Positions 360 to 17,679 of a stretch of DNA of 34,263 nt are shown here, in pieces. The stretch covers positions 1 through 34,263 of the forward strand of contig CALHVP010000135.1 of the NCBI GenBank assembly GCA_938038975.1. The letters run 5' to 3'. This DNA comes from an uncultured Maribacter sp. (GTDB taxonomy: Bacteria; Bacteroidota; Bacteroidia; Flavobacteriales; Flavobacteriaceae). The notes under the pieces are model-generated. The model saw only the letters and a list, made by a program, of their open reading frames with translations, had not been told where the DNA came from and did no database searches. A program made the translations under genes and the position numbers. Each line of letters begins with the position of its first letter. The first letter of the stretch is position 1.

Positions 360-671
360 TTACTGAAAACCTCCCTCAGAAGCCGCGGCAAAAAGGAAAG
401 CCCCTATAGCACCAATATAGATAATACCAAAAATGAGATACAGGGCGGCTATCGCTAAACCTATATAGGATAGTATACGTCCTGTTTTTACATTTTCAAA
501 TCCACTGTAATTTGTGCTATCCAATTCGTATAGTCTTTCTGCTTTTTTAGCACTACTGAGGCCAATAAAACTAAATACCGCACCGAAAGGACCGCAACAT
601 AAAACGGTTAATACAATAGATAATATCCCAAATGTTAAGGCATTGCTAGCGCCTGGTAGTGGTTGATTCAT
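360..671 (-). CDS. Small CCC-motif (CD225/dispanin-like) membrane protein
   Basis: 103 residues with two hydrophobic segments (about 10-38 and 65-95) separated by a polar loop. The first segment carries a cysteine pair (LCCGPFG) where its neighbour has three cysteines. The order of hydrophobic CC segment, short polar loop with an LY...Y stretch, Lys/Thr-rich turn and second helix matches the flavobacterial CCC-motif membrane proteins and resembles the CD225/dispanin (IFITM-like) architecture. It is last in a three-gene minus-strand operon, starting 6 bases after the stop of the preceding paralogue. Membrane location is secure; function is unknown. It could also be grouped with DUF4190-like proteins. 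Confidence 0.7.
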   Translation of the reverse strand: MNQPLPGASNALTFGILSIVLTVLCCGPFGAVFSFIGLSSAKKAERLYELDSTNYSGFENVKTGRILSYIGLAIAALYLIFGIIYIGAIGAFLFAAASEGGFQ

Positions 672-677
672 CTATTT

Positions 678-1016
678 TTATTCTGTAGGTATACCAAATT
701 GCTCTAGCATTTCTTGGTTTTGTTCCATGTAAGCATCCCATCCACCCATTGACATTATAGAGTAGATACTCCAAAGTAATGTTATAACGCCAATTACTAA
801 GCCAATTATAGCTATTGTTTTGACTGTTTTTAAGCTATTTCCATTAGAATAATCTTCTGGATTTTCACTGTACAGTTTAGTGTCTTTATTTACTAAGAAC
901 AAAGCAATTCCAGAAAGTAATATTCCTCCAATTCCTACGCTGAAGCAGCAGCATAAAAACGAAACAATACTTAGGACCATTGCTATTGTAACATTAGGTA
1001 ATTTTTGTTGTTCCAT
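678..1016 (-). CDS. CCC-motif (CD225/dispanin-like) membrane protein
   Basis: 112 residues with two membrane segments (about 10-40 and 65-92). A run of three cysteines (FLCCCF) lies in the first, followed by a glycine-rich stretch (VGIGG) and a polar loop containing LYSENPEDYS. It is a diverged paralogue of the downstream protein: same length, same helix-loop-helix plan and similar LY...Y loop. The C-terminus adds a short acidic, amphipathic tail after the second helix. It lies between a DUF2752 gene (12-base gap) and its paralogue (6-base gap), so the three are very likely co-transcribed. Function unknown. The cysteines could be acylated, as in eukaryotic IFITM proteins, but nothing in the DNA shows this. 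Confidence 0.75.
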   Translation of the reverse strand: MEQQKLPNVTIAMVLSIVSFLCCCFSVGIGGILLSGIALFLVNKDTKLYSENPEDYSNGNSLKTVKTIAIIGLVIGVITLLWSIYSIMSMGGWDAYMEQNQEMLEQFGIPTE

Positions 1017-1028
1017 AATTTTAGTTGT

Positions 1029-1334
1029 TTAAATAAATTTTAAAATATAATTGATTAATATAAATGCTACGGTACTTATCATAAGTACATTGGTTATTCT
1101 ATTCGCTTGTTTAATCGTATAGTATTTGCTAATAATAAGAAAGCCAAATAAAAATAGCATAGGGTAAATAGCTGGGTACATTTCAAAAGCAGCTGAAAAC
1201 TCTCCTTTTAGAAGAAAAATAATAGCCCTTTGTATACCGCATCCGGGACAGTCAAAACCCCATAGCTTCTTTGTAAAGCAAGGAAGCATGTAGTTTTCTA
1301 TTCCTAAAAAAAAAGTAGTAATAAGGGTATGCAT
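1029..1334 (-). CDS. DUF2752 family membrane protein
   Basis: 101 residues. The DUF2752 hallmark FDCPGCGIQRA lies at about 27-37, followed by hydrophobic segments at about 52-72 and 80-100. In this family the CPxCGxxR motif sits at the membrane face of a small two- or three-helix protein; its biochemical role has not been established. It is first in the minus-strand operon with two CCC-motif membrane proteins, which suggests a joint envelope function. The ATG at 1334 is kept because the CPGCG motif is close to the N-terminus and only about 60 bases separate it from the divergent Smr gene. Confidence 0.8.
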   Translation of the reverse strand: MHTLITTFFLGIENYMLPCFTKKLWGFDCPGCGIQRAIIFLLKGEFSAAFEMYPAIYPMLFLFGFLIISKYYTIKQANRITNVLMISTVAFILINYILKFI

Positions 1335-1367: not shown

Positions 1368-1375
1368 TATTTTTG
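1368..1375 (+). promoter_or_regulatory. Bacteroidota -7 box of the Smr gene
   Basis: TATTTTTG matches TAnnTTTG exactly. It ends 18 bases before the ATG at 1394. It overlaps the in-frame TTG at 1373, so that TTG is unlikely to be translated. No clear -33 TTG is seen at the expected spacing. Confidence 0.55.
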
Positions 1376-1393
1376 GGGAATCAAAATAAAATA

Positions 1394-1936
1394 ATGGCTG
1401 TTTTTAAAGTTGGTGATAAAGTAGAGGCTATAGATGACCTAATTAGTGGCATAGTTACGTCTATAATAGGGAATTCTATATCTGTGCTTTGTGATGATGG
1501 ATTTACGATTGATTTTGAAGTAAAGGAGCTTGTAGTCATTACCGGAAGTATTCAGGTAAGTAATTACGAGGTAGCTCAGGTTAAAAAAGAAAAAGAACTG
1601 CCCAAAAAGCGTAAGCCATTAAGCAGCAAGCCTAAAGAAAGAAATCTACCAAAAATGGAAGTGGATTTACATATTAATCAACTTATTAAAAATTCAAAAG
1701 GTCTTGGTAATTATGAAATGTTGAACTTACAATTAGAAACTGCAAAAAGACAATTGGAATTCGCTATGTCTAAGCGTATTCAAAAAGTAGTTTTTATTCA
1801 TGGGGTTGGTGAAGGCGTACTCAAGGAGGAACTGCGGTATTTATTTAATAAATACGATAATGTAAAGCACTACGATGCGGATTATCAAAAATATGGACTT
1901 GGTGCTACCGAAATTTATATATATCAAAATGTTTGA
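1394..1936 (+). CDS. Smr/MutS2-type domain protein
   Basis: 180 residues from the ATG at 1394. The N-terminal 50 or so residues form a small beta-rich module (FKVGDKVEAIDD onward), then a basic linker (KKEKELPKKRKP), then an Smr domain with the conserved DLHI motif and IHGVGEGVLKEELR. Smr domains bind or nick nucleic acids, and stand-alone bacterial Smr proteins are linked to DNA repair or to cleavage of mRNA at stalled ribosomes. The role of this one cannot be fixed from sequence. An earlier TTG at 1373 would add seven residues but lies inside the -7 box. The gene stands alone between a divergent operon and a convergent lipoprotein gene whose stop is only 7 bases away. Confidence 0.85.
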   Translation: MAVFKVGDKVEAIDDLISGIVTSIIGNSISVLCDDGFTIDFEVKELVVITGSIQVSNYEVAQVKKEKELPKKRKPLSSKPKERNLPKMEVDLHINQLIKNSKGLGNYEMLNLQLETAKRQLEFAMSKRIQKVVFIHGVGEGVLKEELRYLFNKYDNVKHYDADYQKYGLGATEIYIYQNV

Positions 1937-1943
1937 TATATTT

Positions 1944-2447
1944 TTATAATTGAGTAGTTACAGTACCAAATTCAGAAATTTGTAAATCGGTTATTCTACT
2001 TCCATCACTAGTGATAAAAGAAATTTCACTCAATTGTATTAAATGACTAAAGGTCTCAGCATCTGTAGTTGTAGTAGTTATGAAAACAGTGCCATCTTCT
2101 GCTGTAACTTCTTCTGTAACTGTAGGTGAAATAGGAGGCACGTCATCACAAAAATAATCCGAAGATACATCGTCGGTAAATATGCGGTATGTTAATTTTG
2201 TAGTTGAAGAAATTTCTTGTGCTATAATTTCTGTTGATACTTCATTTTTAAAGGTACCACTTGGTAATTCTAAAATAAGGGCCTCGTCTCCATTTATTTT
2301 AAAAAGAACGCTTTCTGTGCTGGTAGAAACTGCATCACAAGTTTGAGGGGTTTCTATACTGTCAAAATCAACTGCATCAATCGCTAGATCTCCATCGTCA
2401 CAGGAAAGGAAGATGCTTAATACTATTAGGCTAACTACATTTTTCAT
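1944..2447 (-). CDS. Small lipoprotein of unknown function
   Basis: 167 residues. A very short signal peptide ends in the lipobox FLSC (Cys16), directly followed by DDGD. Acidic residues right after the lipidated cysteine resemble the surface-export signal of flavobacterial lipoproteins, so an outer-leaflet position is possible. The rest is rich in Thr, Ser, Asp and Glu, has two further cysteines (in TPQTCDAV and DYFCDDV) that could form a disulfide, and is predicted from composition to be mostly beta. No family is recognised. It is divergent from the cysteine desulfurase gene. A sequence reading TAAATTTG on the minus strand (2459-2452) matches the -7 consensus but lies only 4 bases before the ATG, so it is probably not the promoter. 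Confidence 0.7.
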   Translation of the reverse strand: MKNVVSLIVLSIFLSCDDGDLAIDAVDFDSIETPQTCDAVSTSTESVLFKINGDEALILELPSGTFKNEVSTEIIAQEISSTTKLTYRIFTDDVSSDYFCDDVPPISPTVTEEVTAEDGTVFITTTTTDAETFSHLIQLSEISFITSDGSRITDLQISEFGTVTTQL

Positions 2448-14990: not shown

Positions 14991-15761
14991 CTAATTCATT
15001 TCTTTTGAATTCCAAATTTCCCAAGCTTTTTCTGCTTGCAGTTCTAACATGGTTAAACCATTTAATATGGTGGCACCTTGGCTTTCTCCAATTGCTAAAA
15101 AAGCTGTTTTTTTTGGGTTATAGATTAAATCAAATAATAAATGTTTTGTAGAAATAAACTCATAGGGAAGTTTTGGTTTATCTGTAATGTCTGGAAAGGT
15201 GCCAACTGGAGAGCAATTTATAATTAGGGTATGAGTTTTTATTATATTTTTGCTCAATTGTTCATAGGTATATCCGTCGTTTTTGCCAGTTCTAGAAACG
15301 AATACAAACTTGATATCCAGTCCTTGTAAAACAAACGCTATAGCCTTTGATGCTCCTCCAGTGCCAAGAATCAATGCCTTTTTGTGATGTTTCTTTAGAA
15401 ATGGTTCAATTGATTTTTGGAAGCCATATGCATCTGTGTTATATCCCTTTAAGCCTGATTTTTCTATTTTTATTGTGTTTACTGCTCCAATTGCTTGTGC
15501 AGAAGAATCTAGCTCTGTTAAGTAGGGAATAATAGCTTCTTTATAGGGAATAGTTACATTTACTCCAACGAGGTCATGACTGTTTTTTATCAGTTTTTTA
15601 AATTCCGAAATGTCATCTAAGTCAAAATTTTCGTAACTATGATTAGGCATTTTTAACTCCTTGAATTTTTCAAAAAAATACCCTCTTGAAAAGGAATAGG
15701 AGATTGTTTTACCTACTAGGCCAAACCTATACTTGTATTGTTTCTTTTCTCTTTTTTCCAT
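14991..15761 (-). CDS. aroE: Shikimate dehydrogenase
   Basis: 256 residues. AroE reduces 3-dehydroshikimate to shikimate with NADPH, step four of chorismate synthesis (cytoplasmic). Visible sites: SxS substrate serines in SYSFS (S23, S25), catalytic K74 in IPYKEA, N95 in GAVNTI, D110 in YNTDAYG, the nucleotide loop GTGGAS (133-138), and a C-terminal NGLTMLELQAEKAW. Length is slightly below that of E. coli AroE. Its ATG lies 35 bases inside the upstream DUF368 gene; no other start allows the FGLVG strand to be included, so the overlap seems real. No other shikimate gene is nearby. Confidence 0.93.
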   Translation of the reverse strand: MEKREKKQYKYRFGLVGKTISYSFSRGYFFEKFKELKMPNHSYENFDLDDISEFKKLIKNSHDLVGVNVTIPYKEAIIPYLTELDSSAQAIGAVNTIKIEKSGLKGYNTDAYGFQKSIEPFLKKHHKKALILGTGGASKAIAFVLQGLDIKFVFVSRTGKNDGYTYEQLSKNIIKTHTLIINCSPVGTFPDITDKPKLPYEFISTKHLLFDLIYNPKKTAFLAIGESQGATILNGLTMLELQAEKAWEIWNSKEMN

Positions 15762-16752
15762 ACCAATCTAAAAGTAATAAAACACCAATTCCGAATACGA
15801 CAAAAAATAAGGCCCACCATGTTTCTGATACGTTCACATCCGGAAAAAATCGTTCGTAATTTACAATAATAGCCTTTCCATTGGAATCTACAAGTTGTTC
15901 GCCAGTTCCTGATAATTTATAAATAGTTCTTTTCCATGGCCAAACTGTGCCTAAGGATCCTGTTATAAAACCCAGAATTACAGCAGTAGTTCTATGTTTG
16001 TAATGTTTAAGTACATAGCTCAGAACATGAGATAATGTAACTAAACCTGTAGCAGAGCCTAGAGTAAAAACTATTAATATGGTAAGTATAGCTAAACGTT
16101 CAGGACTGTTTATAAAACTAAAATCACCTTGTAGTAATTCAGAAATTGTATTGTATAGGGCATTTACCGCATCTACCAATAATAATACATAATTTCCTAA
16201 GAGTATTAAAATGAATGACCCTGAGAGCCCAGGCAGGGTCATGCCAGACACGCTTATCATTCCACACACAAAAACAAAAAGTAAATTATTGTTTTCCTTA
16301 GCAGGGTTTAAAAAACTTATAGCAATACCCACACTAAGTCCAAATAAAGCGGATACAATTGTTTTCTTAGTCCAATGATTAAAGTCCTTATTTATATAGT
16401 GAATAGATCCTAATATCATACCAAAAAAAGCGGACCAAACATAAAGCTCATTATGTTCTAAAAAATAATCTAATACCTTGGAAATACTAAAGTAACTAAT
16501 TAGCATTCCAAATAATAGCAGGCTTAGAAATGACCCATTTATATATCTATAAAAGCTTTTAAATCTACCGTTTAATAGAAGTTTAAATGCTTTGCCATTA
16601 ATTTTTTGCAAGGAATAAATAAACTCTTCGTAAAAACCTCCTACAAAAGCAACAATACCTCCAGAAACACCTGGGACTTTATTTGCTGCACCCATGCACA
16701 ATCCCTTGATAACAAGAAATACTTTATCCAGAAGGGTTCTAGGGTTGTTCAT
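15727..16752 (-). CDS. DUF368 polyprenyl-phosphate transporter homologue, diverged copy
   Basis: 341 residues, polytopic, with about nine to ten hydrophobic segments. It has the DUF368 half-motifs ANKVPGVSGG (23-32) and TLPGLSGSFILILLG in the middle of the protein, an inverted-repeat arrangement. DUF368 proteins (PopT in Staphylococcus) have been implicated in returning undecaprenyl phosphate across the membrane for wall and glycan synthesis. In this copy the acidic residue before VPGVSGG, present in the neighbour as E23 and usual in the family, is asparagine, and the motif continues GGIVAF instead of GGTIAF. It starts 12 bases after the paralogue and overlaps aroE by 35 bases at its end. It may have altered substrate or regulation. 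Confidence 0.85.
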   Translation of the reverse strand: MNNPRTLLDKVFLVIKGLCMGAANKVPGVSGGIVAFVGGFYEEFIYSLQKINGKAFKLLLNGRFKSFYRYINGSFLSLLLFGMLISYFSISKVLDYFLEHNELYVWSAFFGMILGSIHYINKDFNHWTKKTIVSALFGLSVGIAISFLNPAKENNNLLFVFVCGMISVSGMTLPGLSGSFILILLGNYVLLLVDAVNALYNTISELLQGDFSFINSPERLAILTILIVFTLGSATGLVTLSHVLSYVLKHYKHRTTAVILGFITGSLGTVWPWKRTIYKLSGTGEQLVDSNGKAIIVNYERFFPDVNVSETWWALFFVVFGIGVLLLLDWYGKKRKETIQV

Positions 16753-16764
16753 GAAATGCTGTGC

Positions 16765-17679
16765 TTACTTCTTAGAAGCTGTCTTTTCTAATATAAAAAT
16801 AAGGGAAAAACCAATAATAGCCATTACCACAGCCAAGGCTAATTGATTATCACCAGCGTAAGAAAATGGAGTTATATTTTCATCGATAATTATTTCTTTC
16901 TTTCCAATTTTAATAATTTCAATGACATTTTTCCAAGGCCATATTTTGTTTAACGAGCCCAGTATAAATCCGGTGAGAACAGCAAGAGTCGCGTCTTTGT
17001 AGTTCGCAAACATCCATTTTAAAAGTCTAGCAAAGCTTAAAATACCAAAAATAGCTCCTAGCGCAACGGTAATTACAATTTTAAAATCTTTTTCATTTAC
17101 CGCATCTAGGATTGTTTTATAAGATCCTAAAAGAACAAGGATAAAGGAGCCTGAAATTCCAGGCAATACCATTGCGCATATCGCTAAGGCTCCGGATAGG
17201 AATAAAAATGGTAGACTATCTGTGTTTGATGATGGTGGTAAAGTTGTAATATAAAATGCTGTTATAGTTCCTATGGTAAACAAAACAATGGATAGTAGCG
17301 TCCATTTAGTTATTGCTTTAGCAACAAAAATAACACTGGCCAAAACAAGACCGAAAAAAAAGGCCCAAATTGGAATCGTATGAAATTCTAGTAACCAAGT
17401 GATTAGTTTTGAGAATGATAGAATACTAATCATCATTCCTGCAAAAAGTACAACTAGAAAATTACCATTTAATTTTTTCCAAAAAGCTTTAAAACCATCA
17501 TCTTTTAACGTTTTAAAAGTGCTAAGAGAAATATTATTTATAGAGGAAATAAACTCTTCGTAAATGCCTGTGACAAAAGCTATAGTACCACCAGATACGC
17601 CAGGCACCAATTCGGCAATACCCATCGCCATTCCTTTTAAAGCAATAAAAATATGCTGATTCAATTTTCTGTTTTCCAT
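16765..17679 (-). CDS. DUF368 polyprenyl-phosphate transporter homologue (PopT-like)
   Basis: 304 residues, polytopic. It carries the canonical motif AELVPGVSGGTIAF (22-35) and the second half-motif VLPGISGSFILVLLG. The family has been linked to flipping the lipid carrier undecaprenyl phosphate back to the cytoplasmic face so that peptidoglycan, O-antigen and other envelope glycans can continue to be made. Location is the inner membrane. This copy keeps the usual family residues, so it is the more likely of the two to have the standard activity. It follows the TPR gene by 19 bases and precedes its paralogue by 12. Confidence 0.88.
   Translation of the reverse strand: MENRKLNQHIFIALKGMAMGIAELVPGVSGGTIAFVTGIYEEFISSINNISLSTFKTLKDDGFKAFWKKLNGNFLVVLFAGMMISILSFSKLITWLLEFHTIPIWAFFFGLVLASVIFVAKAITKWTLLSIVLFTIGTITAFYITTLPPSSNTDSLPFLFLSGALAICAMVLPGISGSFILVLLGSYKTILDAVNEKDFKIVITVALGAIFGILSFARLLKWMFANYKDATLAVLTGFILGSLNKIWPWKNVIEIIKIGKKEIIIDENITPFSYAGDNQLALAVVMAIIGFSLIFILEKTASKK

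Follow-up and report, generated by a model that had tools for sequence, protein, structure and literature searches.

Three small genes near the left end of the window, a single 34,263-base contig from an uncultured Maribacter sp., are read as the flavobacterial form of a module that places a DUF2752 protein beside dispanin-type membrane proteins (Table 1). Comparison of sequences and gene neighbourhoods suggests that DUF2752 and dispanin-type proteins work together. The draft genome behind the window comprises 279 contigs and 3.29 Mb and is estimated to be 85% complete. According to the open reading frame list and the sequence itself, the trio lies on the minus strand in the order DUF2752, CCC-A, CCC-B; the initial annotation had not stated the strand, and because the DUF2752 gene occupies the high-coordinate end, it is the first to be transcribed. 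Three small membrane proteins with CPGCG, CCC and CC motifs and intergenic gaps of 12 and 6 bases had been described, and both gaps were confirmed, with each motif present in one of the proteins. The motif cysteines (C19, C29 and C32; C22 to C24; C25 and C26) are the only cysteines that the three proteins contain.

Table 1. Coordinates of the trio, its spacers and the flanking gene in the window
Feature	Coordinates	Strand	Details
DUF2752 protein, short subtype	1029..1334	-	101 aa; first gene of the operon; C19, CPGCG (C29, C32), R36; PF10825 E 3.8e-18, 65.7 bits
DUF2752/CCC-A spacer	1017..1028	-	12 bases; without an in-frame stop past the TAA at 1031-1029
CCC motif membrane protein A (CCC-A)	678..1016	-	112 aa; CCC at 22-24; NF040945 125.6 bits, PF07666 41.2 bits
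CCC-A/CCC-B spacer	672..677	-	6 bases, AAATAG
CCC motif membrane protein B (CCC-B)	360..671	-	103 aa; CC at 25-26; NF040945 84.8 bits, PF07666 45.4 bits
Smr-domain gene, divergent; flanks the trio, outside the module	1373..1936	+	PF01713 E 1.1e-7; 23/26 genus loci examined

The start codons of all three genes share one reading frame, for which the chance expectation is about 1 in 9. With only the single in-frame TAA between DUF2752 and CCC-A, read-through would give a fusion of the two proteins; no natural fusion of DUF2752 to a partner was found among the fetched loci. Each start is preceded by A/T-rich sequence, and no strong ribosome-binding site was visible upstream of the three starts on inspection of the sequence.

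The first gene proved to be a DUF2752 gene, as had been annotated, since it exceeded the PF10825 cut-off of 27 bits by a wide interval and carried the full motif, with CPxCG at residues 29 to 33. It belongs to a short subtype with a clade of its own, which differs from the CD225-associated members of the family in lacking their N-terminal hydrophobic stretch. The CCC naming of the other two was likewise upheld, both exceeding the cut-offs of NCBIfam NF040945 (CCC_membrane, "CCC motif membrane protein"; 65 bits) and of Pfam PF07666 (MpPF26; gathering score 37.2). They resemble these families in length and in the cysteine cluster that ends the first hydrophobic helix, although CCC-B has CC in place of CCC. 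A text search of the open-licence literature gave no paper describing the NF040945/MpPF26 family, and no function assigned to it was found.

The two proteins had also been called dispanin-like, and here the outcome was divided. In the profile search, CCC-B scored 13.2 bits against CD225 (PF04505; E 0.099; gathering score 27.1) and CCC-A had no match, while the scores against DUF4190 (PF13828) were 18.2 and 13.7 bits for a gathering score of 35. Both CCC proteins fall below the CD225 cut-off, and the CD225 label is therefore not justified by profile score. Its support is indirect, from genome context and not from sequence, as the CCC genes hold the place beside DUF2752 that belongs to genuine CD225 genes across many phyla. 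MpPF26 and DUF4190 also provide weak Pfam connections. The initial annotation had regarded a lack of CD225 profile similarity, together with a lack of conservation of the trio, as telling against its proposal; the former was found, whereas the trio is conserved. Like the CD225/dispanins (IFITM, PRRT), the CCC proteins have two hydrophobic segments, the first of which ends in a cysteine pair (CC/CCC at residues 22 to 26; model helices 9-25, 29-51 and 59-89). They differ in a longer inter-helix region, in a conserved N-P-x-x-Y, and in the G-D-x-x-G-A loop between the hydrophobic segments, which is seen in the CD225 alignment and missing from the CCC alignment.

A further possibility is that CCC and CD225 are genuinely homologous, the CCC proteins having diverged strongly after duplication of a CD225-DUF2752 pair in an ancestral flavobacterium; this is a question of origin and does not conflict with the explanation favoured below. 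By hhalign, CCC matched CD225 at 95% and DUF4190 at 94%, compared with 0 to 3% for unrelated membrane families and less than 1% for column shuffles. This value was rejected as proof of homology, since a reversed CD225 alignment also gave 94%, and on these alignments the score is taken to mark a like hairpin pattern and not descent. Links at the level of individual members speak for common origin: 3 of 19 CD225 members matched MpPF26 (best E 6.8e-5), 7 of 22 CCC members matched CD225 weakly (best E 0.0086), and 17 of 22 CCC proteins matched DUF4190 at E up to 0.5 (best 2.1e-8). The two pairs also stand in tandem in several Flavobacteriaceae, in the order CD225, long DUF2752, short DUF2752, CCC in Flaviramulus, Confluentibacter and Seonamhaeicola (L094, L108, L109, L131) and in the order short DUF2752, CCC, CD225, long DUF2752 in Winogradskyella and Mangrovimonas. 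Against this stand the hhalign match, no better than its reversed control, the missing loop motif, and the lack of any Foldseek match at E < 1 for the CCC model. Descent from CD225 is thus possible but somewhat doubtful.

The neighbourhood of DUF2752 was surveyed in 297 evenly drawn Bacteroidota genomes, in which DUF2752, CCC, CD225 and TM2 were searched and their positions compared. Among the matches listed, at least 28 of 33 above-cut-off CCC genes and all 3 above-cut-off CD225 genes lay within 1 kb of a DUF2752 gene, as did at least 58 of the 150 TM2 matches listed; the chance of such adjacency is about 0.0005 per gene (2-kb window, 4-Mb genome). Five above-cut-off CCC matches stood apart from the DUF2752 matches listed for the 297 genomes, and at some loci a short DUF2752 gene was present without such a partner (L210, L212, L213, L216). 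DUF2752 was also found next to various other small membrane genes, some of whose products we take, by their sequence, to resemble DUF4234, DUF5684 or RDD. A further group of longer CCC proteins (L308-L311) occurs without DUF2752, between homogentisate dioxygenase-like and 4-hydroxyphenylpyruvate dioxygenase-like genes.

For a scan across phyla, a 16-sequence DUF2752 alignment was discarded as too diverse, and a 6-sequence set of the long subtype was used as the query, yielding 80 named loci. Neighbours were called with profiles from curated sets, within 400 bases and on the same strand; every one of the 19 CD225-set proteins matched PF04505. A CD225, CCC or DUF4190 gene accompanied DUF2752 at 50 of the 80 loci, a rate that is biased because the query was itself CD225-associated, although this bias does not affect the spread over phyla. 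The 50 loci came from nine phyla: Bacteroidota, Planctomycetota, Bacillota, Nitrospirota, Acidobacteriota, Cyanobacteriota, Hydrogenedentota, Actinomycetota and Verrucomicrobiota. DUF4190 and TM2 (PF05154) share with CCC the position beside DUF2752, in Streptosporangiaceae and in many Bacteroidota, respectively, but TM2 was dissimilar to CCC in the profile comparison (3%). In the Streptosporangiaceae, close relatives carried either CD225 or DUF4190 at one and the same place, and in a Clostridia plasmid record DUF2752 was followed by an annotated TM2 gene. In the DUF2752 tree, the short, CCC-associated genes formed a single clade (37 rows, SH-aLRT 98), and the partner labels needed 37 changes compared with a shuffled mean of 86, the exact number of partner switches being unreliable in a tree that was built from few columns and leaves many forks open.

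Streptomycetaceae accounted for 21 of the 30 loci without CD225, CCC or DUF4190. In this family (L114-L170), DUF2752 adjoins a trp-operon-type membrane protein and a small HGHTPAAWTG protein, not a dispanin-type gene, and a trpC-like gene comes next in related actinobacteria (L124, L161, L164). On Streptomyces plasmid NZ_CP109047.1 (L092), DUF2752 lies among CopC, DUF305, DUF3105 and heavy-metal regulator genes, a setting that could point to metal handling. Variant DUF2752 proteins at L316, L318 and L332 have CKSRG in place of CPxCG, with the motif partly lost, and a DUF4190-like gene adjoins them. The occurrence of DUF2752 alone, beside varied small membrane genes, and beside the trp-operon-type protein in Streptomycetaceae would fit a purely regulatory relationship, in which co-transcribed small envelope genes have no direct interaction and their cysteines serve separate structural roles. 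The same few types of small membrane domain nevertheless recur beside DUF2752 in nine phyla, including swaps among close species, and a shared regulation without contact is considered unlikely.

The explanation that we favour, tentatively and with slightly less than even confidence, is that the three genes form one operon for a small inner-membrane complex of DUF2752 with the CCC hairpin proteins. CCC-A and CCC-B would be helical-hairpin membrane proteins doing the job that CD225 (dispanin) does in other lineages, and their hairpin might wedge into the membrane and so reshape it locally or change how other membrane proteins pack. DUF2752 would be their dedicated partner. Its cysteines (C-x9-CPxCG-xx-R) may meet the conserved cysteine of the partner at the end of the first membrane helix, and together they could form one metal or thiol site, common to both proteins, by which the pair is held or regulated. 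For the trio, we infer co-transcription, physical binding, a shared thiol site and a membrane-shaping role; a cysteine site common to DUF2752 and its partner is less probable than the complex as such.

Across 66 homologues, the invariant residues of DUF2752 were C19, C29, G31, C32, G33 and R36. Each partner alignment contained one invariant or nearly invariant cysteine towards the end of the first hydrophobic stretch, namely C24 in CCC, C21 in CD225 and C63 in alignment A5. A cysteine was present in 40 of 40 TM2 proteins adjoining DUF2752 and in 26 of 40 elsewhere (Fisher p 3e-5), related sequences not being independent and the second set probably holding a few true neighbours missed at contig ends or beyond the matches listed (e.g., L280, at a contig end). 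CCC proteins apart from DUF2752 had been predicted to lose their cysteines, but each of the five retains one or more close to where the first hydrophobic stretch ends, and four of the five have CC or CCC (L308-L311). The CCC cysteines are therefore not strictly dependent on an adjacent DUF2752 gene.

In the predicted structures, CCC-A (mean pLDDT 76) has a fourth helix at 93-106 in addition to the three given above, and the CCC motif falls at the first helix break; in DUF2752 (mean pLDDT 80), a helix at 30-42 begins with CPxC. Foldseek comparison of either model with the PDB gave no solved relative at E < 1, and a PDB sequence search gave no solved structure for DUF2752. The CCC sequence search returned weak matches, to designed coiled-coil proteins only, while the CD225 alignment matched PRRT1, which has solved structures (9zks, E 3.4e-18).

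The same cysteines could be accounted for if DUF2752 were not a stable subunit but an enzyme modifying those of its partner, by S-acylation or by disulphide/persulphide exchange, with the modified partner becoming a lipid-anchored hairpin. The CPxC at a helix start, the third invariant cysteine and the invariant arginine are consistent with this, as is the cysteine that each partner family conserves towards the end of its first hydrophobic helix. That such a site can be acylated is indicated by a di-cysteine mycobacterial CD225 protein, for which S-palmitoylation was seen on expression in human cells (PMC4488726); lipid modification is thus plausible, with the reservation that the host was human and not bacterial. 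However, no solved enzyme was matched by sequence or structure, the protein has only about 100 residues and no obvious cofactor site, and CCC proteins without an adjacent DUF2752 gene keep their cysteines. A modifying enzyme is accordingly rated as rather improbable, and a complex of DUF2752 with the CCC hairpins is preferred.

Conservation of the trio, as initially proposed, was confirmed, with homologues across the genus. One DUF2752 gene was present in 34 of 35 same-genus genomes, the remaining genome being 68% complete, and a CCC gene adjoined DUF2752 in all 29 relative loci examined. Purifying selection was evident from median within-genus dN/dS values of 0.10 (DUF2752), 0.24 (CCC-A) and 0.07 (CCC-B), medians that leave out many pairs with saturated dS. 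The chromosomal site is fixed in the genus, with an aminotransferase end alongside in 26/26 loci and the divergent Smr gene in 23/26, and the neighbours are housekeeping genes. Beside the Smr gene, a small putative lipoprotein gene (window 1944-2447) is conserved in the genus and has no Pfam match above cut-off. Elsewhere in the window (15727-17679), two adjoining genes each match PF04018 (undecaprenyl phosphate translocase-like).

The suggestion of an envelope stress or phage-related module found no support in these data. Animal IFITM proteins restrict viruses, and this analogy is the sole point in favour of an anti-phage or mobile defence module, a reading that is extremely unlikely given that PADLOC defence models gave no match to the trio at E 0.01, that no match to it was found in 50,697 phage records and 72,556 plasmid records, and that it keeps a constant chromosomal site in the genus amid housekeeping genes.

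The families of the trio are already known and named. No mention of DUF2752 was found in the open-licence literature (subscription papers and preprints lay outside the search), so that its association with CD225 seems undescribed there; text searches of open-licence papers likewise gave no description of the cross-phylum association or of the CCC substitution. An origin from bacterial CD225/dispanin proteins has been proposed for the animal IFITM proteins (PMC4488726). It is conceivable, if quite speculative, that DUF2752 is an ancient bacterial partner or cysteine-modifying factor of dispanin hairpins, that CCC is a diverged dispanin branch, and that the ancestors of IFITM belonged to a two-component system, the other member of which eukaryotes have lost or replaced. 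As a small, cross-phylum neighbour with invariant cysteines, DUF2752 is a specific candidate partner of bacterial CD225/dispanin proteins. The flavobacterial trio offers a compact, non-mobile example of the DUF2752-dispanin-type module, and the adjacency of the two provides a testable lead on the role of bacterial dispanin-like proteins.
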